From Gaiellales bacterium (GTDB lineage Bacteria > Actinomycetota > Thermoleophilia > Gaiellales > JAICJC01), in the NCBI GenBank assembly GCA_036403155.1, contig DASWRM010000036.1:1-57355 (forward strand): DNA of 57,355 nt, given 5' to 3'. Positions 3-11,831 of this stretch are shown here, in pieces. The notes under the pieces were generated by a model, which searched no databases, was not told where the DNA came from, and saw nothing but the letters and a program-made list of their open reading frames with translations. Numbering within the stretch: the first letter of the stretch is position 1; every line of letters starts with the position of its first letter. A program made the position numbers and the translations under genes.

Positions 3-911
3 GCGTCGACGTTCGACGAGCCGTCCTTCGACGCAGCGCAGCCGTCCGAGCAGCCGGCCGAGCCGGTCTGGCACGAGCAGGCGGTCGCCGATGCGCACGC
101 CGACGGCGAGCAGGCCGCGGACGAGACGCACGAGGCGCAGGGGTCCGAGCAGGATCCCGCTCCGCAGGACGACGTCCCGGTGGCGGAGGGCGGCGGCCTG
201 GAGCACCACGAGGCGCAGGAGGCCTTCGAGGAGGCCGCCGACGAGCCCGCCGACGACGTCGAGCACGGACCCGTCGCGCACGAGCAGTTCCCCGAGCCGG
301 CCCTCGACCCGGTCGGCGAGACGCCGGCCGCGACGCTGCCCGAGGCAGTCGTGGCCGAGCGGCAGCCGGCCGACCTGGGCGGTCTGGCGGACGCCGTCGA
401 CCGCGCCATCGCGGCGCTCGAGGGCTTCGTCGGCAACGAGCTGCGCACCGTGCGCGAGGCGAGCCAGCTGGAGATGGAAGAGATCCACGCCGAGCGCCGG
501 CGGCTGATCGACGAGGCGGCCGACGCCGGCCGACGCCACATCGACGATGCGCGACGGCACGCGGATGGGATCATCGCCGAGGCCCAGCACCAGGCCGAGC
601 AGATGCGCGCACGGTTCGAGCAGGAGCTCCACGAGGAGCGCGAGCGCTTCGAGCAGGCGCTCGCCGACCGCGACGCCCAGGCGCAGGCCCGTGCTGCGGA
701 GACGCTGGCAGATGCGGAGGCCAGGCGACGGGAGGCCGACGAGCTCGTGGCCAGCGCTGCGCAGGCGCAGGCGGCGATGCTGGCCTCGTTCGAGCAGGCC
801 CGTGCCTCGCTGATCCAGGCGGCAGAGCGGACGCGGCTGGCGCCGCCCGCGGAGTTCGTGTCGTCTGACCACGAGGACGCGGATGAGCACGACGCCTCGG
901 CCGCAGCTTGA
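3..911 (+). CDS. Partial coiled-coil protein, DivIVA-like in style
   Basis: The reading frame is open from the first bases of the window, so the true start lies upstream. About the first 110 visible residues are acidic and low-complexity (Asp, Glu, Ala, Pro). From roughly base 400 to 850 there is a long Glu/Arg/Ala/Gln-rich stretch with heptad character, which should form an extended coiled coil. This architecture recalls DivIVA/SepIVA-type cell-pole or septum proteins, but no diagnostic N-terminal motif is visible, so the function stays unassigned. The stop overlaps the start of the HD-GYP-like gene by 29 bp, suggesting co-transcription. Confidence 0.6.
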   Translation, partial: ASTFDEPSFDAAQPSEQPAEPVWHEQAVADAHADGEQAADETHEAQGSEQDPAPQDDVPVAEGGGLEHHEAQEAFEEAADEPADDVEHGPVAHEQFPEPALDPVGETPAATLPEAVVAERQPADLGGLADAVDRAIAALEGFVGNELRTVREASQLEMEEIHAERRRLIDEAADAGRRHIDDARRHADGIIAEAQHQAEQMRARFEQELHEERERFEQALADRDAQAQARAAETLADAEARRREADELVASAAQAQAAMLASFEQARASLIQAAERTRLAPPAEFVSSDHEDADEHDASAAA

Positions 912-1914
912 TGCGCCCGTCGCACCGTTCCGCCTGACGCCCTCCGACGGCGGTACGCCCGTCACCATCGACGAGCTCGTCAGCACCGCTCCGGCGGTCC
1001 TGGCCCTGGTCGACGGCGGGCAGACCGACGACGCCCGCGCCGCGATGCTTCGCGAGCTGGGGCAGCGGATGGCCGGCTCGGACACGGGCGCCCGCCTCGT
1101 CCTCGTATCGCCCGGGGACTCCGCCCTCGGACGCCAGCTCTCTGTCGTGCGGGTGGCGGAATGGCTCACGGATCCCAAGGGCGACGCGGCGCGCGCGCTC
1201 GGCCTCCTCGCCGAACGCAAGCTCCGGCGGTCGCGCAGGGCGGACGGCCTGTTCGTGGTCGGCGAGCAGCGGATCCTGCGATTCGCGTTCAGCGTGCAGG
1301 AGCCCGGGCAGTGGGTGCCGGCCGGATTCGTCTGGTCACGCCTCGTGCGCCTGGGCAGCGCGAGCCCCGAGCCCGTACGGCGAGGCGCAGACCCCGGCGC
1401 TCCGGGCGAGGCGGAGCTCGACGCGCTGGTGCGGGAGGTGGGCCGCGCGCTCGGCCTGTCGCCGACGGAGCTGACGCAGCTGGCGACGGCGAGCCGCTTC
1501 CGCGACCTCGGCATGAGCGTCGTCCCGGACGAGATCATCACCAAGATCGGCCCGCTCACCGACGACGAGTGGGCGATCGTGCACCGCCACCCGGAGCGCT
1601 CCGCCGAGATGCTCGGCCCGAGCCCGCTCTTTGCCGCCGTCCGCGAGATCGTCCGGGCGAGCCACGAGCACGTCGACGGCAGCGGCTACCCCAACGGCCT
1701 GCGCGGTGACGACATCCCCCTTGGTGCACGGATCCTGCTCGCGGCCGAGGCGTACCTCGCGATCGCCACCGGCCGCAGCTACCACGAGCCCGGCCGGACG
1801 GTGGACGCGCTTGCCGAGCTGCGGGAGGGAGTCGGCACGCGCTACGACGCGCGTGTCGTGCATGCGATGGCCGAGGTCGTCGCCGGGGCGCCGGTCGCCG
1901 CCCGGACGGCCTGA
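883..1914 (+). CDS. Redoxin-like domain fused to a degenerate HD-GYP domain
   Basis: The protein is 343 aa. Residues 1-165 look like a peroxiredoxin/thioredoxin-type fold (opening PVAPFRLTPSDGG) but contain no cysteine, so peroxidase activity is not expected. Residues 190-340 resemble an HD-GYP phosphodiesterase domain: HRHP, SHEHVDGSGYPNGLRG and IPLGARIL are recognisable. The metal-binding HD of the usual HDIGK is replaced by RD in FRDLGM, and the later AD..DA motif reads AEAYLA. In active HD-GYP enzymes these residues bind the di-iron or tri-iron centre that hydrolyses cyclic di-GMP. I infer a catalytically impaired receptor or scaffold. The ATG at 883 overlaps the upstream gene. Confidence 0.75.
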   Translation: MSTTPRPQLDAPVAPFRLTPSDGGTPVTIDELVSTAPAVLALVDGGQTDDARAAMLRELGQRMAGSDTGARLVLVSPGDSALGRQLSVVRVAEWLTDPKGDAARALGLLAERKLRRSRRADGLFVVGEQRILRFAFSVQEPGQWVPAGFVWSRLVRLGSASPEPVRRGADPGAPGEAELDALVREVGRALGLSPTELTQLATASRFRDLGMSVVPDEIITKIGPLTDDEWAIVHRHPERSAEMLGPSPLFAAVREIVRASHEHVDGSGYPNGLRGDDIPLGARILLAAEAYLAIATGRSYHEPGRTVDALAELREGVGTRYDARVVHAMAEVVAGAPVAARTA

Positions 1915-2530: not shown

Positions 2531-3091
2531 GTGCTCTCCCCGAGCTACCCGATCGCGACCGGCCGCCTGCGCCTGCGGCCGCTGACCGCTGCGGATGCGG
2601 ATGCAGTCCACGAGATGGACTCGCGGGAGGACGTCACGCGCTGGCTCTATCACGGCCCGCGTACGCGCGCAGAGACCGAGGAGTGGCTCGGCATGCAGCT
2701 GGAGAAGACCCGCATCGAGCGTGAGGGGGACGGCTTGGTGCTCGCCGTCGAGCACGCCGGGCGGGGCGAGCTGCTGGGAACGGTCGTGCTGTTCCACCGC
2801 AGCGAGGAGCACCGCCAGGGCGAGATCGGCTTCGTCCTGCACCCGCGGCACCACGGCCACGGGTACGCATCCGAAGCGGCTCGGGAGATGCTGCGGCTGG
2901 GGTTCGACGGCCTTGGGCTGCACCGCATCGTCGGCCGTCTGGAGGCCCGGAACGAGGCGTCCGCCCGGCTGCTCGAGCGGCTCGGGATGCGCCGGGAGGC
3001 GCACCTCCGCGAGAACGAGTGGGTCAAGGGTGAGTGGCAGGACGAGGTGGTCTACGCGATGCTGGATCGCGAGTGGCGGACGCGCGCCTGA
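2531..3091 (+). CDS. GNAT family N-acetyltransferase (RimJ/RimL-like)
   Basis: A 186-aa cytosolic protein of the Acetyltransf_3 type. It opens with the typical strand TGRLRLRPLTAADADAV, has the acetyl-CoA loop region around GYASEAAREMLRLGF, and ends with the characteristic helix NEASARLLERLGM followed by EWVKGEWQDEVVYAML. The family transfers acetyl groups from acetyl-CoA to amines, often protein N-termini; the substrate here is unknown. The start is GTG. Its 3' end overlaps the next gene by 19 bp. Confidence 0.85.
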   Translation: MLSPSYPIATGRLRLRPLTAADADAVHEMDSREDVTRWLYHGPRTRAETEEWLGMQLEKTRIEREGDGLVLAVEHAGRGELLGTVVLFHRSEEHRQGEIGFVLHPRHHGHGYASEAAREMLRLGFDGLGLHRIVGRLEARNEASARLLERLGMRREAHLRENEWVKGEWQDEVVYAMLDREWRTRA

Positions 3092-4068
3092 CGATCGACG
3101 ACCCGGCGGCGGTGCGGGCAGTCGCGGGGATCGCACGCCATGCCGCCGCCGAGCCCGAGGGCGGCATCTCGATCCGCGCAGACGGCGACGATCTGGTGAT
3201 CGCCTCGCCCGGCGCGACCTCGCTGCTCGTCGCCCGGCTCCCTGCTCCGGCCGGCGCCGAATCCCTGCAGGGCACCTACGGGCCTCCCGATCCGCCGCCG
3301 AAGGCCGCGGACGGCGGAGCCGTGTCGTTCCGGCGATCGGCGCGGCGGCTCCAGATCGCGATCGGGGGCGAGCGGATGGCCCTGGACGCAACATCGTCCG
3401 ACGCGGTCGACGTCAGCTGGATCTGGCCCGCGGCGGAGCCTGCCGTCGAGGCGGTGGTCTCGCGCGACGCACTGCTCGAGGCGCTGCCCGGTGGCGAGGG
3501 CCGGCTGACGTTCTCCGGCGCCGACAAGCAGCTCGTGCTCGAGGCCGGGCGGACGGAACGGCGGCTGCCGCTCAAGAACCGGACGCGGCGCCGTAAGGAC
3601 GTCGGCGCGGCGGTGGCCTTCGATCAGCTGCGGCAGCTCGTGGAGGCGGGCGCCGCCGACGTATCCGTCGGGCTGGCGGAGCTACGGCCGCTGACGGTCG
3701 AGTCGGGTCCCGTGCGCGGGATGCTCGTCCGCGGCACGCCGATGCGGTGGCGGCCATCGGCCGACCATCCGGCGGGATCCCGTCCGCCGGCTCCGGCGGC
3801 ACCTGCCGAGCGCACGCGGGCGCGGGCTGCACCGCGCCCGGACCGCGACGCTGAGCGGCGTGCACGGGAGCAGGAGCAGGAGGCCCGGCGGCGCGCCCGG
3901 TCAGCCACCGCAGCCGTCGCGGCGATCGGGCGCGCGGTGTCGCAGGTCGACGCGGCGGCGAACGATGCCGCGCAGCTCGGCGACGATCGCGCGGTCGCTC
4001 GGCTCACCGAGGCGCGCGCCGCGCTGGACGACGCGGCGGCGCGCTTGCAGCGCCATCTCGACTCCTGA
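3073..4068 (+). CDS. Unknown protein with possible DnaN/PCNA-like clamp fold and basic coiled-coil tail
   Basis: I choose the GTG at 3073 (VADARLTIDD); an earlier GTG at 3034 would overlap the GNAT gene by 58 bp. The product is 331 aa. Residues 1-225 are beta-rich with two internally similar halves. The second half (from VVSRDALLEALPGG) resembles the last domain of bacterial beta clamps: helix FDQLRQLVEAG, a strand, RPLTVESG, then VRGMLVRGTPMRW, close to the conserved ...MPMR ending of DnaN. Residues 230-331 are Pro/Ala-rich, then a basic Arg/Glu coiled coil. Function is not known; the clamp resemblance is my inference from pattern alone and needs a profile search. Confidence 0.6.
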   Translation: MADARLTIDDPAAVRAVAGIARHAAAEPEGGISIRADGDDLVIASPGATSLLVARLPAPAGAESLQGTYGPPDPPPKAADGGAVSFRRSARRLQIAIGGERMALDATSSDAVDVSWIWPAAEPAVEAVVSRDALLEALPGGEGRLTFSGADKQLVLEAGRTERRLPLKNRTRRRKDVGAAVAFDQLRQLVEAGAADVSVGLAELRPLTVESGPVRGMLVRGTPMRWRPSADHPAGSRPPAPAAPAERTRARAAPRPDRDAERRAREQEQEARRRARSATAAVAAIGRAVSQVDAAANDAAQLGDDRAVARLTEARAALDDAAARLQRHLDS

Positions 4069-4092: not shown

Positions 4093-5748
4093 GTGAACCG
4101 CCTGCGGCTCGTGATGGGGGTGCTCGCCCTCGGTGTGCGGAACCGGGCGCTCCGCCGGGTGGAGCTGGCCTTCGCGGCGTTCAACGGCGCCGAATGGGGC
4201 GTCTGGGTCGCGATCCTCGTCTACGGGTACGGCCACGGCGGTGCGACGGGATCGGCTCTGATTGCGCTGGTGCAGCTCGTCCCGTCGGCGCTGCTGGCCC
4301 CGTCGCTCGCCTCGCTTGCCGACCGCCACCGCCCGGGGCGCGTGCTGCTCGCCGGCTACCTGGCCCAGTCGATCGCGATGGCGGCGGTGGCCGCCGCCAT
4401 CGCCGGGTCGGCCCCATCGCTGGTCGTGTTCGCCCTGGCGCCCCTCGTCAACCTCGCCGTCACGGTGCCGCGCCCGGCGCAGGCGGCACTGCTGCCGGCG
4501 CTCGTCACGACGCCGATCGAGCTGTCCGCATCCAACGTCATCTCCAGCTGGATGGAGAACCTCAGCGTCCTCGTCGCCCCGGCCGTGTGCGGGGTGCTGC
4601 TGGGAGCCGGCGGGCCGGAGCTCGCGATCGGTGCGATGAGCGCCCTGGCGCTCGGGGCGGCTGTGCTCGTGGCACCCCTGCCGGGGCCCGAGCCGATCGG
4701 CGCGGCCGACGAGGGCTCCGGCACGAGCGTCATGGCGGACGTCCGGGAGTCGGTCGCCGTGATCGCGGCCGATCCAGCGGCACGGCTGCTGGTCGGCCTG
4801 CTCGGCGCCCAGTTCGTTCTGATCGGCGCACTCGACCTGCTGTACGTGGTGCTGGCCATCTCCGTGCTCGGCATGGGGCAGTCGGGCGCCGGGTACCTGA
4901 ACGCCGCGTTCGGCGCCGGCGGCCTGGTCGGCGGCATGGTCACCGCCGCGCTTGTCGGCCGGCGCCATCTCGCCCCGCTGCTGGTGTGCGGGATCGCGGG
5001 AGCCGGCGCGGCGCTGGCGACGCTGGCAGCCCAGCCGAGCGTCGCCGCCGCCTTCGTGCTGCTTCCGGTGGCCGGCATCGGGCGCGCCGTCTTCGACGTC
5101 GCCGGCCGGACGCTGCTGCAGCGGGTGGCGCGCCCCGACATGCTGGCGCGGGTGTTCGGACTGCTCGAGTCGTTGATGAACGCCGGCCTGGCCGTCGGGT
5201 CACTGCTCGTGCCGCTGCTGATCGGGGCCAGCGGCCCGCGGGCCGCCCTCGCCGGCGCAGGCGGCCTCCTGATCCTGCTGATCGCAATCACCGGACGGCG
5301 GCTGCTGGGCGTGGACGCCTCGGCGGACGTCCCTGTGGTCGAGATCGCGCTCCTGCGATCGATCGCGCTGTTCGCCGCGCTGCCCGCGCCCGCGCTGGAG
5401 ACGCTCGGCCGTGCCCTGGAACCGCTCGAGGCGAGCGCGGGCACGGTCCTGATCCACCAGGGGGAGGAGGGCGACCGGTACTTCGCCATCGCGGACGGGT
5501 TGCTCGACGTGACGCGAAACGGCGCCCACGTCGCGCTGCTCGGCCGCGGCGAGGGCGTCGGCGAGATCGCACTGCTCGAGGACGTCCCGCGCACCGCGAC
5601 GGTGACCGTCCGTCAGGATGCGCGGCTCTATGCGCTCACCAAGGAGCCGTTCGTGCTGGCGCTGACCGGCCATCCGCCCGCCGTCCGCGCGGCGCGGCGG
5701 GTCGTCGCCGGCCGGCGGGACGAGCTGGTGGGGCTCGACGCCGGTTGA
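4093..5748 (+). CDS. MFS transporter fused to a C-terminal cyclic-nucleotide-binding domain
   Basis: 551 aa. Residues 20-405 carry about 12 hydrophobic segments of a major facilitator transporter, with a DRHRPGRVLLAG loop between helices 2 and 3. Residues 420-540 are a cNMP-binding (CAP_ED) domain: LIHQGEEGDRYFAIADG and the phosphate-binding-cassette motif GEIALLEDVPRTATV are clear. This suggests a permease (exporter or importer, substrate unknown) gated or sensed by a cyclic nucleotide at the cytoplasmic side. It is the last + strand gene before the converging formate dehydrogenase operon (6-bp gap). Confidence 0.88.
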   Translation: MNRLRLVMGVLALGVRNRALRRVELAFAAFNGAEWGVWVAILVYGYGHGGATGSALIALVQLVPSALLAPSLASLADRHRPGRVLLAGYLAQSIAMAAVAAAIAGSAPSLVVFALAPLVNLAVTVPRPAQAALLPALVTTPIELSASNVISSWMENLSVLVAPAVCGVLLGAGGPELAIGAMSALALGAAVLVAPLPGPEPIGAADEGSGTSVMADVRESVAVIAADPAARLLVGLLGAQFVLIGALDLLYVVLAISVLGMGQSGAGYLNAAFGAGGLVGGMVTAALVGRRHLAPLLVCGIAGAGAALATLAAQPSVAAAFVLLPVAGIGRAVFDVAGRTLLQRVARPDMLARVFGLLESLMNAGLAVGSLLVPLLIGASGPRAALAGAGGLLILLIAITGRRLLGVDASADVPVVEIALLRSIALFAALPAPALETLGRALEPLEASAGTVLIHQGEEGDRYFAIADGLLDVTRNGAHVALLGRGEGVGEIALLEDVPRTATVTVRQDARLYALTKEPFVLALTGHPPAVRAARRVVAGRRDELVGLDAG

Positions 5749-5754
5749 CCCGCC

Positions 5755-6624
5755 TCAGCCCGCGGAGATCCGCTCCGGCCGCGTGTAGATGTTGAACCGG
5801 TTCCCGCGGAGGAAGCCGACGAGCGTGATCCCGAACCGGCGGGCGGCATCCACTGCCAAGCTGGACGGCGCGGACACGGCGCAGACGACCGGGATGCCGG
5901 CCGTGGCCGCCTTCTGGACGATCTCGAAGCTCGACCGGCCCGAGACGAGCAGCAGGCGGTCCGAGAGCGGCAGACGGCCGGCGAGCAGCTCGCCTCCCAC
6001 CAGCTTGTCGACCGCGTTGTGGCGGCCCACGTCCTCGCGCAGCTCGGCCAGCGTGCCGTCGGTCGAGAACAGGGCCGCGGCATGCAGGCCCCCGGTGCGG
6101 TCGAACACCTCCTGCGCACTGCGAAGGCGGTCGGGCAGGCTCGTGATCACGTCGGCGGGCACGACCGGGCCGTCGCCGATCGGCGCGCAGTGCACGTCGA
6201 TCGCGTCCAGCGACGCCTTGCCGCACACCCCGCAGCTGGACGTTGCGTAGAAGTTGCGCTCGGCGCCGACGGGGTCGAGCGCGCGGCTGACGGCCACGCT
6301 GACCACGTTGTAGTGCTGCTCCTCGCGAGGCACCGCGCAGTAGCGGACGGTGCGCACCTCGTCCGGCCCGGCGATCAGCCCCTCCGTGTAGAGAAAGCCG
6401 ACGGCGAGCTCGAAATCACTGCCGGGCGTCCGCATCGTCACCGCGATCGTCCGTTGGTCGGCCCCCGGCTCCTCGACCCGGATCTCCATCGGCTCCTCGG
6501 TGGCGAGGCGGTCGCGCACCGACCGGGCGGAGCCGTCCTCGACCGTGACGATCCGTGCCCGCGTGGTGCTGGCCGGCCGTCGCGGGGCCGGGTCGATCAG
6601 CTGCTCGGCGGGTTCACTGCTCAT
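5755..6624 (-). CDS. fdhD: Formate dehydrogenase accessory sulfurtransferase FdhD
   Basis: 289 aa from the ATG at 6624; a longer frame to 6714 runs into the previous gene and is Arg/Ser-rich, so I reject it. FdhD moves sulfur from a cysteine desulfurase to the bis-MGD molybdenum cofactor, which activates formate dehydrogenase. The sulfur-carrying CGVCG motif (SSCGVCGKAS), the GRHNAVDKL segment and SGRSSFEIVQKA are all present. It is the last gene of the fdh operon and overlaps the DUF6457 gene by 11 bp. Confidence 0.95.
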   Translation of the reverse strand: MSSEPAEQLIDPAPRRPASTTRARIVTVEDGSARSVRDRLATEEPMEIRVEEPGADQRTIAVTMRTPGSDFELAVGFLYTEGLIAGPDEVRTVRYCAVPREEQHYNVVSVAVSRALDPVGAERNFYATSSCGVCGKASLDAIDVHCAPIGDGPVVPADVITSLPDRLRSAQEVFDRTGGLHAAALFSTDGTLAELREDVGRHNAVDKLVGGELLAGRLPLSDRLLLVSGRSSFEIVQKAATAGIPVVCAVSAPSSLAVDAARRFGITLVGFLRGNRFNIYTRPERISAG

Positions 6625-6877
6625 CGGCGGGTCGTCCCAGGACGTCTGCGAGGGCGCGGATGCGGGCGACGCGCGCCTGCGGGTCGCTCTCCTCCGCGAG
6701 GATCTGGCCAGCAAGGTAGCAGGTGAGCGGCGCGGCCCTGCGGTCGCCGCTGGTGTCGGCCACGGTCTTCGCCAGCCACAGCAGCGCGTCCGCCTCGTCG
6801 CGCGTCATGTCGTGCGCGCCGGTCGCCGCGGCGACCCGCGCGGTCATCGCCTCGTAGGGCTGGGGCCCCTCGCTCAC
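6614..6877 (-). CDS. DUF6457-type small protein in the formate dehydrogenase operon
   Basis: 87 aa, predicted cytosolic and helical. The segment LLWLAKTVADTSGDR with RAAPLTCYLAG matches the pattern I associate with DUF6457 proteins, which in actinobacteria sit beside molybdenum-cofactor and formate dehydrogenase genes. The molecular role is unknown. It overlaps the upstream Fe-S subunit gene by 4 bp and fdhD by 11 bp, so it belongs to the same transcript. Confidence 0.75.
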   Translation of the reverse strand: MSEGPQPYEAMTARVAAATGAHDMTRDEADALLWLAKTVADTSGDRRAAPLTCYLAGQILAEESDPQARVARIRALADVLGRPADEQ

Positions 6878-7812
6878 CCGCCGTCAGCGCGGTTCTGCAC
6901 GTACTGGAACCCGAACCGGCCCTTGACGCAGAGGTTACCGCTGGTGACGTCATGGTCGAGCGGCGAGGTGACCTTGACGATCGTATTGTCCTGCACGTGC
7001 AGCTCGAGCGTGCAGCCGACGCCGCAGTACGAGCAGATGGTGTCGGTGACCGTCTGCTCGTCCTCGCTCCACGTCCCCGCCTCGCGCATGTCGTACTCGC
7101 TCTTGAACATGAGCGCGCCCGTCGGGCACACGGCGATGCAGTTGCCGCAGTAGACGCAGGCCGAGTCCGGCAGCGGCGTCGCGAACTCGGTCGCAATCCG
7201 GGCGTCGAACCCGCGCCCTGCCACGGCGATGGCAAACGTGTTCTGCCAGTCCGATCCGCAGCCTTCGACGCACTTGTAGCAGAGGATGCACTTGGAGTAG
7301 TCGCGGACGTAGTTCTCGTTGTCGATCTTGACGGGCTGCGCGACGGTCGCAGCCGTCTGGCCGTCGCCGGGATCGTGGTGCCCGGCATGCGCGTGGTCGC
7401 GCTCACCCGAAGCGGCGGCGGGCGCCGGCGGGCCGTAGCGGTCGGGGCGCGCGCCGTAGTCGTCCATCCAGCCGTCGACCCGGCGGGTGGTCGAGAGGTC
7501 GACGCTCGAGCCCAGGAACTCGAGCACCATCTTCCGGCTGTGCTGGACGCGCTCGGTGTCGGTGCGCACGACCATGCCCTCCTCGACCTTGCGGGCGCAC
7601 GAGGGCACCAGCACGCGCGACCCCTCGACCTCGACCATGCACACGCGGCAGGCGTTGACGGGGGTGAGCGTGTCGCCGTAGCACAGCGTCGGAATGTCCA
7701 TCCCGCGCGAGCGGCAGGCGTCGAGGATCGTCGCGCCCTCGCGGACGCGGACCGGCTCGCCGTCGATCAGCACCTCGACGGTGCGGCGGATCTCCACGGG
7801 CGTGAGCGTCAT
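6874..7812 (-). CDS. Formate dehydrogenase Fe-S subunit: ferredoxin modules plus the detached N-terminal Fe4S4 domain of the alpha subunit
   Basis: 312 aa from ATG 7812. Domains in order: a NuoG-like [2Fe-2S] ferredoxin (residues 10-85; LCYGDTLTPVNACRVCMVEV), a His-containing linker, a two-cluster ferredoxin (CILCYKCVEGC and CVYCGNCIAVCPTG, about residues 165-240), and finally the molybdopterin-oxidoreductase Fe4S4 domain (CSYCGVGCTLE and GNLCVKGRFGFQY, about 258-307). In ordinary FdhA/FdsA proteins this last domain continues straight into the catalytic domain. Here the protein stops five residues later, and the catalytic part is a separate gene two genes upstream in the operon. The start overlaps the fdhB stop (ATGA). 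Confidence 0.9.
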   Translation of the reverse strand: MTLTPVEIRRTVEVLIDGEPVRVREGATILDACRSRGMDIPTLCYGDTLTPVNACRVCMVEVEGSRVLVPSCARKVEEGMVVRTDTERVQHSRKMVLEFLGSSVDLSTTRRVDGWMDDYGARPDRYGPPAPAAASGERDHAHAGHHDPGDGQTAATVAQPVKIDNENYVRDYSKCILCYKCVEGCGSDWQNTFAIAVAGRGFDARIATEFATPLPDSACVYCGNCIAVCPTGALMFKSEYDMREAGTWSEDEQTVTDTICSYCGVGCTLELHVQDNTIVKVTSPLDHDVTSGNLCVKGRFGFQYVQNRADGG

Positions 7813-9668
7813 GCGGCTCCTTGCGGTTCGAAGACGTGCAGCTGGCGGATGGCGGTGTCGACCGCGTTGGCGGCGGTCTGGCCGAGCCCGCAGATGGATG
7901 CGTCGCGCATGGCCTGGGCGATCTCGCCCAGGAGCGCGACCTCGTCCGCGACCGTGCCGCGCGGCCGGCCGGAGGCGAGCCGCAGCAGCGCCTCCTGCTG
8001 GCGCACGGTGCCGACCCGGCAGGGGACGCACTGGCCGCAGGACTCGTCACGGAAGAAGGCGGCGATGCGGAGCAGGATGGGCACGAGGTCAACGGTGTCG
8101 TCGAACACCATCACGACACCCGACCCGAGCGTCGCGCCGGCGGCGCGCGTCGCCTCGAAGGAGAGCTCGAGGTCGAGCGCGTCGGCACCGACGAAGCCGC
8201 CCGCCGCGCCGCCGAGCAGGATCGCCTTCAGCGGCCGGCCGGCGCGCACGCCTCCCGCCATCTCCAGCACGCTCCCCAGCGACACGCCGAACGGCACCTC
8301 GTACAGCCCCGGCCGCTCGATGCAGCCGGACAGGCACAGGAGCCGGGTGCCGGTCGACTGCTCGGTGCCGATGCGGGCGAAGGCGTCGCCGCCCTCGAGC
8401 ACGATGTCCAGGACGTTGATCAGGCTCTCGACGTTGTTGACGACCGTCGGCTTCCCGAACAGCCCGGCGTCGACGGGGAACGGCGGCTTGTTCCGCGGCT
8501 CGCCGCGGAGCCCCTCGATCGAGTTGAAGAGCGCGGTCTCCTCGCCGCAGATATAGGCGCCTGCGCCCTTTCGCAGCTCGATGTCGAAGCGGACGCCGTG
8601 GCCCATGACGTCGTCGCCGAGCATGCCCCACTGCCGCGCCTGCGTGACCGCCTCGGTCAGTCGCCGCCACGCCAGCGGGTACTCGCCGCGCAGGTAGATG
8701 TAGCCGTGCTCGGCGCCCACGGCGAAGCCGGTGATGACCAGCGCTTCGATCAGCGCGAACGGGTCGCTCTCGATGACGACGCGATCCTTGAAGGTGCCGG
8801 GCTCGGACTCGTCAGCGTTGCAGACGACGAAATGCGGGCGCGCCGGATTGCGGGCGACGGCCTCCCACTTGCGGCCGGTGGGGAAGGCGGCGCCACCGCG
8901 GCCGAGCAGCTTGGAGTCCGTCATCTCCCTGATGACGCCGGCCGGCCCGATCTCGAGAGCGCGGCGCAATGCCTGGAAGCCTCCGGCGTTGCGGTAGCTC
9001 TCGAGGCTGGAGGGGTCGACGACGCCAACGCGACGGAGCAGCCGCAGCGACCCGGGATCGCTCTCGCGCTGCGGGACGATCGTCCCGGTCGCGGCCGGCT
9101 CTCCGCCGGACAGGGCCGCCAGGACGTCGTCCACGGACGCGGGCGCCACGGAGCGCTCCTCGGCGTCCTCACCGGCGCGGGTCACCAGCACGGCCGGCGC
9201 CTGCTCGCAGAGCCCCAGGCACGGGCTCTCCAGCCAGGTGGCCGAGCCCTCGCCGGTCGGCGTGCCGGCGCCGCCCACCCGCTCCTCGAGGTTCGCCACG
9301 AGCTCCGCGCTACCGCGGCACATGCAGGCGATGTCGGTGCAGACGTGGGCAACGGTGGCGGGGCGCGGCTCGAGCGCGAACAGCGCGTAGAAGCTGGCGA
9401 CGCCGTACGCCTCGGCCGGCGGGATCGTGAGGCGCCGGCAGACGTATCCCAGCGCGCCGGGGCTGATCCAGCCGGCTCGCGCCTGCACCTCGTGAAGCAC
9501 CGGCAGCAGGAGATGACGGCGGCCGCGGGCCTCGTGCCCTCCGAGCGCGGACTGCGAATCGTCGCCGCGGCGGCCGCCCTCCCATGACGAGCGGGGCGGG
9601 CCGAGCAGCGCGTCGACCGCCGCGCGCTCTGCCTCGGTCGGCTCCTCGGATGTGAGGCGGAGATCCAC
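7809..9668 (-). CDS. fdhB: NAD-dependent formate dehydrogenase diaphorase subunit, NuoE-NuoF fusion
   Basis: 619 aa. Residues 45-165 are a thioredoxin-like [2Fe-2S] NuoE domain (CTDIACMCRG and ESPCLGLCEQAPA). Residues 215-600 are NuoF: the FMN/NADH-binding GRGGAAFPTGRKWEAV, NADESEPGTFKDR and GAGAYICGEETALFNS, then the [4Fe-4S] motif SCGQCVPCRVG. It passes electrons from formate oxidation to NAD+ (or back) in the cytoplasm. It lies 6 bp after fdhA and overlaps the Fe-S subunit by 4 bp. FdsB and HoxF-type proteins have the same layout. Confidence 0.92.
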   Translation of the reverse strand: MDLRLTSEEPTEAERAAVDALLGPPRSSWEGGRRGDDSQSALGGHEARGRRHLLLPVLHEVQARAGWISPGALGYVCRRLTIPPAEAYGVASFYALFALEPRPATVAHVCTDIACMCRGSAELVANLEERVGGAGTPTGEGSATWLESPCLGLCEQAPAVLVTRAGEDAEERSVAPASVDDVLAALSGGEPAATGTIVPQRESDPGSLRLLRRVGVVDPSSLESYRNAGGFQALRRALEIGPAGVIREMTDSKLLGRGGAAFPTGRKWEAVARNPARPHFVVCNADESEPGTFKDRVVIESDPFALIEALVITGFAVGAEHGYIYLRGEYPLAWRRLTEAVTQARQWGMLGDDVMGHGVRFDIELRKGAGAYICGEETALFNSIEGLRGEPRNKPPFPVDAGLFGKPTVVNNVESLINVLDIVLEGGDAFARIGTEQSTGTRLLCLSGCIERPGLYEVPFGVSLGSVLEMAGGVRAGRPLKAILLGGAAGGFVGADALDLELSFEATRAAGATLGSGVVMVFDDTVDLVPILLRIAAFFRDESCGQCVPCRVGTVRQQEALLRLASGRPRGTVADEVALLGEIAQAMRDASICGLGQTAANAVDTAIRQLHVFEPQGAA

Positions 9669-9674
9669 GGGGCG

Positions 9675-11612
9675 CTACCGGGCGGGCACGGCCGCCGCCG
9701 GCCGGTCGTGGCGCTCGCGCACCGTGAGCTTCTCCACCCTGATCGCGGCCGCCTTGAACTCTGCCGTGCCGGACTTGGGATCCGTGGCCTCGATGGTGAG
9801 GACGTTCGTCTCGACCTGGTCGGGGAAGTGCAGGGTCATGAACGCAAGGCCGGCCCTCAGCGATGCGTCGATGCGAACGGGAGCGGTGACCGATCCGCGG
9901 CGCGAGCTGACCAGCACCTCCTCGCCGTCGGCGACGCCGAGGCGCTCGCAGTCCTCCGGAGACAGGTCGAGCGACTCGCCCCGCCGCAGCGGCGAGGTGT
10001 AGCCGCCGCTCTGCACGCCGGTGTTGTACGAGTCGAGGCGCCGGCCGGTGGTGAGACGGATCGGGAAGTCGTCGTCGAGCTCGTCGACCGGAAGCTCGTG
10101 CAGGACGACGTTGAACGGAGCGCGGGCGCCGGTGACCGGGTCGTCCCAGAGCCTGCCGTGGAGGAACGGGGAACCGGTGTCCTCCTCGTCGGTGCACGGC
10201 CACTGCACGCCGCCCAGCCGCTCCAGCTTCTCGTAGCTCATGCCGGCGTGCATCGGGGACAGCGAGCGCAGCTCGTTCCAGACCTGCTCGGCGCTCTCGT
10301 AGCGCCAGTCGTGGCCGAGCCGGCGGGCGATCTCGCAGACGATCTCGATGTCGTCACGGGCCTGGCCGGGCGGGTCGAGCGCCTTGCGGACGCGCTGGAC
10401 GCGGCGCTCGCTGTTCGTGACGGTGCCCTCGGACTCGCACCAGCTGGCCGACGCGGGGAGCACGACATCCGCGAGCTCAGCCGTCTTGGTCAGGAAGATG
10501 TCCTGGACGACGAGGTGGTCGAGGCTCTCGAGCAGGTGCCTGGTGTGCTTCGCGTCGGCCTCGGACTGCGCCGGGTTCTCGCCGACGACGTACGCCGCTC
10601 GCAGCTCGCCGCGCTCGATCGCCTGGAACATCTGCGTCAGGTGCCAGCCGTAGCGCGGCAGGATGGAGGCACCCCACGCCTGCTCGAAGCGGGCGCGCGC
10701 GGCGTGATCGGCCTCGATGTCCTGGAACCCGGGCAGCTTGTTCGGGATGGCGCCCATGTCGCCGCCTCCCTGCACGTTGTTCTGGCCGCGCAGCGGGTTC
10801 AGGCCTGAGCCGTAGCGGCCGACGTGGCCGGTGAGGAGGGCGAGGTTGATCAGCGAGAAGACGTTGTCCACCGCGTTGTGATGCTCGGTGATGCCGAGCG
10901 TCCAGCAGATCATGGCGCGGTCGGCGCGGCCGTAGGCATGGGCGGCCTCCCGGATCAGCTCGGCGGGGACGCCGGTCTCCCGCTCACCGCGCTCGAGCGT
11001 CCACTCCTCGACGCTGGCCGCGTACTCGTCAAAGCCGGTCGTCGCGCGGTCGATGAACTCGCGGTTGTGGAGCCCCTCGTGGATGATCTCGCGCGCCATC
11101 GTGTTGGAAAGCGCGATGTCCGTGCCCACGTCGATTCCCAGCCAGCCGTCGGCCCACTGGGCCGAGCTCGTCCGCCGGGGATCGACGACGTACAGGCGCG
11201 CGCCGTTGTTCACCGCCTTGAGGACGTGATGGAAGAAGATCGGATGGGTTTCGCGGGCGTTCGACCCCCACAGCAGGATCAGGTCGGTCTCCCTGACCTC
11301 CTCGTAGGAGCTCGTGCCGCCCCCGGCCCCGAACACTGTCGCCAGACCGACGACGCTTGGTGCGTGTCAGGTGCGGTTGCAGCTGTCGACGTTGTTCGAG
11401 CCCATGACGGCGCGCGTGAACTTCTGAGTGACGAAGTTCACCTCGTTGGTCGCCTTGGAGCAGCTGAACAGGCCGAACGCTGCCGGGCCGGCCTCGCGGG
11501 CGGTGCGAAAGCCGTCGGCGGCGCGGTCGAGCGCCTCCTCCCAGGTCGCCGTCCGCAGCGCGCCGTTCTCGCGCACCAGGGGCTCGGTCAGTCGGGTCAG
11601 TTGTGGTCGCAT
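9675..11612 (-). CDS. fdhA: Formate dehydrogenase catalytic subunit, selenocysteine-containing (UGA read-through)
   Basis: 645 aa if the TGA at 11367-11369 (codon 82) is read as selenocysteine. Upstream coding ends NNVDSCNRT, and coding resumes in the same frame as HAPSVVGLATVFGAGGG, exactly where formate dehydrogenases have Sec or Cys as the molybdenum ligand. A SECIS-like hairpin follows. Later residues match the bis-MGD oxidoreductase core (LLWGSNARETHPI, LRGQNNVQGGGDMGA, MTLHFPDQVETNVLTIEATDP). The N-terminal Fe4S4 domain is missing and is encoded at 6874-7812. The start is ATG 11612 (MRPQLTRL) with a near-perfect ribosome-binding site GGAGGAGGTGAT just upstream. An automatic annotation would probably call this two broken genes. 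Confidence 0.9.
11338..11354 (-). promoter_or_regulatory. SECIS-like hairpin after the fdhA UGA
   Basis: On the minus strand GUCG, a bulged U and C lead into the loop GGUCUG, closed by G and CGAC. The GGUCUG begins 18 bases after the UGA, the same spacing and loop sequence I recall for the Escherichia coli fdhF SECIS, which also has a bulged U just below the loop. This is the element SelB recognises to recode UGA. Confidence 0.75.
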
Positions 11613-11831
11613 GTGTCCATCACCTCCTCCCGCACGGTCGCAGGGACGCAGGCGTCCGGACGCGCGGGACGCCAGGGAATCATTGCCGAGACTCGCCCGC
11701 CAGTAAAGTGGACCGGCCCCCACAGTGCGGGCGCCCGCGCTGGGCGGGGCACCATGCCGGCGGGCGGAGGGGTCATGCGAGGCGTGCCTCCCACCCCGCG
11801 GATGCGACCGCCCCGTGACGCTTCCCCCAAT

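Follow-up and report, generated by a model that had tools for sequence, protein, structure and literature searches.

Clamps with two domains per chain are known from archaea. They also occur in eukaryotes and in some bacteriophages, and the bacterial clamps are described as dimers with three domains per chain (PMC9690074). The two-domain chains of PCNA and of phage T4 gp45 form trimeric rings (PMC9690074). A different solution is represented by HSV-1 UL42 and HCMV UL44, which are reported as non-ring processivity factors of herpesviruses (PMC10653895, PMC9690074); a high positive charge has been noted for clamps of this type (PMC9690074). Finally, a clamp fold has been predicted for the poxvirus late transcription factor 1 (vaccinia G8R), a protein tied to late transcription (PMC2674943). 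A keyword-limited search of the literature returned no report of a two-domain or second bacterial clamp protein of the kind described below.

The window, i.e. the whole stretch of 57,355 nucleotides that was analysed, belongs to a genome of 3.2 Mb in 79 contigs. Near its start it contains a gene for a clamp-like protein of 331 amino acids, which overlaps a gene annotated as a GNAT acetyltransferase. The gene pair and the parts of the protein are as follows:

2531..3091, plus strand: GNAT acetyltransferase gene (PF13302, Pfam E 4.1e-35), overlapping the clamp-like gene by 19 nt
3073..4068, plus strand: clamp-like gene, 331 aa, from the inferred GTG start to the stop at 4068
3073..3426, plus strand: N half, residues 1-118, predicted clamp-fold domain (AlphaFold, Foldseek, VIA-align)
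3427..3753, plus strand: C half, residues 119-227, putative second clamp domain (low-pLDDT models, weak phmmer similarity)
3574..3600, plus strand: basic loop KNRTRRRKD, residues 168-176, within the C half (8 of 9 residues identical in the sister species)
3754..3846, plus strand: linker rich in Pro, Ala and Arg, residues 228-258, net charge +3 (from the sequence)
3847..4065, plus strand: tail, residues 259-331, net charge 0 (helical or coiled-coil by eye)

The open reading frame at 3073-4068 is a real coding gene. Its GC content by codon position (0.83/0.61/0.87 over the whole frame) looks coding, with less typical values in the tail (0.89/0.67/0.83). A longer frame beginning with GTG at 3034 is also open, and in-frame upstream starts are present in both species that carry the gene; GTG 3073 was preferred because the GTG of the sister species has an identical 19-nt overlap with the stop of the GNAT gene, and it is therefore the probable start. 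The GNAT and clamp-like genes may be translationally coupled.

The boundaries between the halves (1-118 and 119-227) are our own division of the protein. An earlier note on this DNA had described two beta-rich halves of about 110 residues followed by a basic tail. The two halves stand, but the models contain helices as well as strands, and the basic character applies to the linker but not to residues 259-331, which are neutral and are probably helical or coiled-coil as judged from their sequence. The clamp-like part as a whole has a net charge of 0, with an acidic N half and a C half of +4. The end of the C half, RPLTVESG...VRGMLVRGTPMRW, is strongly conserved in the sister species.

The structure of residues 1-230 was predicted with AlphaFold from an alignment of two sequences, giving a mean pLDDT of 58 and a pTM of 0.55; the block means for residues 1-110 were 70-87 and most of residues 114-230 fell below 50. 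Searching this model against 350,542 PDB chains with Foldseek returned 1189 matches up to E 10, 13 of them at E <= 0.001, the best having an E of 2.7e-4 and a probability of 1.00. All of the best 50 of these 1189 matches (50/50) were beta clamps or complexes and fusions holding one, many of them repeats of the same few proteins. The TM-scores of 0.31-0.39 (query) and the rmsd of 9-12 A indicate that the complete two-half arrangement is not reproduced. In the top VIA-align alignment (Z 8.6, 115 residues, 3.3 A) residues 1-117 were superposed on residues 131-255 of a beta clamp, which we take to be domain 2, and the 50 rows listed were all clamps or clamp-holding complexes, including DnaN, PCNA, 9-1-1 and the HSV-1 polymerase. 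For the whole model a Z of at least 8 was reached in 5 of 995 chains, which is modest; since values below 8 are common in this type of comparison, weight was placed on the uniformity of the list. The top match in BFVD was a phage DnaN (E 1.7e-5), and among the 50 matches listed there were more phage clamps, viral PCNAs, herpesvirus processivity factors and some unnamed proteins. On the strength of this model the N half probably has a clamp fold. A canonical clamp domain has a second helix that is longer than that of the N half, which is very short in the AlphaFold model (H62-65).

The C half was modelled as a helix, three strands, a helix and two strands in the joint model, at low pLDDT, and as a helix, three strands, a helix and three strands when modelled alone (pLDDT 42.6). 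This order of helices and strands is that of a clamp domain. Searched alone with Foldseek, the C half had no match at E <= 0.001: Cas1 came first, at E 0.17, and DnaN took five of the 50 listed rows, with E 0.99-1.4 and alignments of 31-37 columns. In VIA-align no chain reached Z 5 and one PCNA row had a Z of 2.8. The Cas1, ribosomal, Hsp90 and FtsH-type matches of the C half were not taken as relatives because their scores are non-significant. Between the N and C halves themselves no similarity was detected by hhalign (E 0.63). Residues 119-227 are most likely a putative second clamp domain, as suggested by their length, their order of elements and a weak phmmer match to DnaN (see below), and the presence of two clamp domains in the protein is likely. 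The divergent clamp fold proposed in the earlier note is thus supported by prediction for the N half, with its fairly confident model and its clamp matches, and is no more than putative for the C half; comparing a predicted structure with DnaN and PCNA was the check that the note had suggested.

A model built on so shallow an alignment could also mislead, the protein in that case having some other, unrelated alpha/beta fold and a helical tail. Only two sequences were available, the C half is unreliable and alone had no significant match, the TM-scores are low, and neither a family match nor DnaN in the profile search was obtained. The pLDDT of residues 1-110 and the uniformly clamp-type rows of both Foldseek and VIA-align speak against an artefact, and a phmmer search with residues 1-230 independently placed DnaN first, weakly and through a stretch lying mainly in the C half. 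We consider such an artefact unlikely.

At the level of sequence, no family of Pfam or NCBIfam was matched up to E 10, the DnaN and PCNA profiles included, and PADLOC gave no match up to 0.01. Three weak matches in PHROGs (E 0.1-3.3) all fell in the linker and tail. With residues 1-230 as the query, phmmer returned five matches up to E 10 among 177,635 PDB sequences, with Caulobacter DnaN in first and second place (E 0.022 and 0.024) and RstA next (0.09); the best single stretch had an E of 0.73. The best-aligned part, LPGGEGRLTFSGADKQLVLEAGRTERRLPL, belongs mainly to the C half and was paired with the second part of what, going by its domain boundary, is presumably DnaN domain 1. With the full protein DnaN came second and third, at E 0.11. 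A two-sequence profile gave three matches to the PDB sequences, none of them DnaN, and the sister protein gave no phmmer match in the same set.

For a comparison closer to the organism, 30 aligned DnaN sequences of the order were used. The hhalign probability was at most 5.2% and non-significant. When columns were shuffled (100 shuffles for each comparison), two of the 12 comparisons had no shuffle scoring as high, and the other ten had 3-29; the two were those of the full length and of the C half, both with DnaN domain 1, over 33-34 columns. The earlier note had also seen in the end of the C half a resemblance to the end of DnaN, which did not hold up, as 11 of 100 shuffles scored as high in the comparison of the C half with DnaN domain 3. 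HMMs of the order DnaN gave 0 to 3.7 bits in HMMER; scores as high were reached by 0.6-23% of 5000 shuffles and by 5-154 of 2349 ORFs, both proteins ranking towards the top of the shuffles but not standing out. The sequence link to DnaN is thus suggestive at best. The approximately 227 residues ahead of the linker leave room for two domains and not for the three per chain of DnaN, and as no family profile is matched either, we place the protein outside the DnaN and PCNA families, as a variant on the clamp fold.

The same genome contains a canonical DnaN of 363 aa, whose gene adjoins a recF-like ORF on another contig and is the only one in the genome with PF02768. Since this normal DnaN is retained beside the recF-like ORF, the clamp-like protein is not the replicative clamp. 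Between the two species DnaN is 88.7% identical and the clamp-like protein 55-58%, so that the latter changes much faster. It could be imagined that the clamp-like protein binds its own DnaN or the partners of DnaN and competes with them, as a decoy, an inhibitor or a subunit of a heteromeric clamp; the earlier note had thought of an inhibitor, a decoy or a repair-specific clamp. The clamp fold of the N half found by Foldseek and VIA-align would fit such a role, as would the motif PMRW ahead of the linker, which by eye resembles the PMRL-type ending known for DnaN (the genome's own DnaN ends in MPIRLPS); however, there is no significant sequence link to the DnaN of the order, and the identities given above show no shared pace of change. 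We regard competition with DnaN as quite improbable.

The one convincing relative comes from another species of the genus (contig JAICYJ010000003.1 of Thermoleophilia bacterium LS_ISSM_2_bin.20, a MAG), and is 55% identical overall. Identity is 58-58.6% in the clamp-like part, 69% in the C half and 43.5% in the linker and tail (92 codons). In the clamp-like part the differences by codon position are 0.28/0.25/0.43, third positions differing most, and in the tail 0.46/0.45/0.55, which points to weaker constraint. The dN/dS values (NG86) of 0.35/0.61 for the clamp part, 0.70/1.03 for the tail, 0.32/0.79 for the GNAT gene and 0.23/0.81 for the HD gene can be taken only as rough estimates, given the divergence and the GC bias. 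Among the neighbours, the GNAT proteins are 60.9% and the HD proteins 69.8% identical between the two species; the clamp-like gene therefore diverges about like the GNAT gene and more than the HD gene.

The upstream genes (DivIVA-like, HD and GNAT) are common to both species, as is the 19-nt overlap; the two species do not share the small ORF at 1920-2279 or the genes downstream. No replication or repair gene was seen among the neighbours inspected. The first ORF of the window (3-911, plus strand) encodes a coiled-coil protein that is DivIVA-like by eye and has no Pfam match over the cut-off; it is open to the start of the window and of the contig and is thus probably cut. The relative at the sister locus (L004, 12603-13790) has the N-terminal repeats FSLTPTGYNPEEVD. 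The next gene in the window encodes an HD_5 domain protein (883-1914, plus strand); among the matches listed for it, those that cover the N-terminal part come mainly from the same family, with one partial exception (G098). Downstream of the clamp-like gene are an MFS transporter with a C-terminal cyclic-nucleotide-binding domain (4093-5748, plus strand; PF07690 E 3e-17, PF00027 E 6e-14) and, on the minus strand, an FdhD-like gene and then formate dehydrogenase or NADH-dehydrogenase-like genes (5755-11723, ORFs by eye).

The possible coupling with the GNAT gene raises another explanation, in which the clamp fold has been turned to a role unrelated to DNA, e.g. as a partner of the acetyltransferase or a scaffold for it. 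The 19-nt overlap in both species, the similar divergence of the two products (58.6% for the clamp part and 60.9% for GNAT), the acidic N half and its short second helix would all be compatible with this prediction. In the genome counts given from here on the genome of the window itself is included. Searching the 129 genomes of the order for relatives of the GNAT gave 19 matches, spread over 18 genomes, and 17 of these matches lie outside the genus. Downstream of 15 of the 17 no clamp-like ORF was detected (best HMM score 6.2 bits); those of two genomes (G041 and G088) were left out, two of the stretches are short (L110 and L115) and one begins inside the GNAT gene (L119). These 15 loci indicate that the GNAT does not need the clamp-like protein; a role of this kind is predicted with little confidence and we hold it to be unlikely.

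Convincing relatives of the clamp-like protein itself were limited to two of the 129 genomes of the order, with weak matches in seven more (E 0.003-0.075). Among the weak matches of the order, one locus (L006) has no ORF of 200 aa or more and another (L008) holds ordinary proteins by eye. In the class, the full profile gave two convincing genomes of 399 and a third at E 0.0085, matched at profile positions 221-317, i.e. in the linker and tail; with the C half as the query there were again two of 399, and 13 more genomes with partial stretches at E 4e-4 to 0.0098. A sample of the phylum contained one convincing genome of 396 (the sister genome did not appear) and 15 more at E 0.001-0.037, and in a second order none of 232 genomes was convincing, 14 having matches at E 0.001-0.048. 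Eighteen weak loci from the phylum sample and the second order (L083-L100) were followed up: their best 15 ORFs scored 13.8-20.3 bits, and the eight inspected resemble, by eye, unrelated proteins or translations in the wrong frame. As these large runs scored no more than 4-12 candidates for each genome listed, remote relatives may have escaped them.

Three genomes of the same family contained no clamp-like protein at E 10, and the fetched DNA at their loci orthologous to the HD gene contained no clamp-like gene (tblastn best E 3.1). A first scan of database genome contigs was without a match and a second found the sister species only. Scans of viral contigs, each based on two short peptide patterns, found none. 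Phages and plasmids gave no match up to E 10 in protein mode, and the nine plasmid records obtained in DNA mode were all confined to the GNAT part of the query. Among the genomes searched, the clamp-like protein thus appears in two species of one genus.

Compared with the known clamps, the protein shares with bacterial DnaN the best fold matches of its N half and, in a stretch of its C half, a weak similarity to the Caulobacter protein, but it differs in having two halves of about 227 residues together instead of three domains, in the absence of a Pfam match, in its additional linker and tail and in the separate canonical DnaN of the genome. With PCNA and gp45 it has in common a two-domain length, and a PCNA123 heterotrimer and human 9-1-1 were among the 50 VIA-align rows; unlike them it has no Pfam match and continues behind the clamp part for about 100 residues, as linker and tail. 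Length and order of elements fit two domains, of which the N half alone has a confident model. Three HSV-1 polymerase or replication entries, whose chains are presumably UL42, appeared in the VIA-align rows (Z 7.0-7.2), and herpesvirus processivity factors were among the BFVD matches listed; in contrast to UL42 and UL44, however, the clamp part has a net charge of 0, and no sequence relation was seen. Set against the basic face of UL42-type factors, this neutral part includes a C half of +4 with the basic loop, these being charges of whole parts and not of surfaces. The crocodilepox late transcription factor 1 was also among the BFVD matches listed, but vaccinia G8R is viral and no sequence relation to it was seen.

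The account that we prefer, tentatively and at slightly less than an even chance, is that of a lineage-restricted accessory protein with a clamp fold, a Pro/Arg-rich linker and a probably helical tail, acting as a scaffold for DNA or for partners; its fold is fairly likely and its function is what we infer from it. The clamp part would serve as a platform for DNA or for partners in the replisome or in repair, with the conserved basic loop KNRTRRRKD of the C half as a candidate contact, and the flexible basic linker together with the helical tail may allow self-association or the reaching and binding of partners. By analogy with PCNA and gp45, three chains could assemble into a ring of six domains; alternatively, the protein might work as a clamp without forming a ring, as some herpesvirus factors do. 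That the clamp part carries no net charge speaks against an electrostatic mode like that of UL42, and a second helix as short as that of the N half speaks against an ordinary helix-lined ring; both features call for caution. The acidic N half and the lack of replication or repair genes among the neighbours inspected also count against this account. The predicted scaffold role at DNA or the replisome is, taken by itself, rather doubtful. More speculative still is a genus-specific, chromosomal auxiliary clamp of two domains, ring-shaped or open, which would work beside the normal DnaN with its helical tail and would have arisen by extreme divergence or by acquisition.

If such an auxiliary clamp were real, it would be a bacterial analogue of the division of labour seen between PCNA and 9-1-1 or with UL42. 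A second, two-domain clamp in a bacterium would ask whether bacteria have dedicated non-replicative clamps, and it would also raise the question of how a clamp fold persists once the resemblance in sequence is lost.
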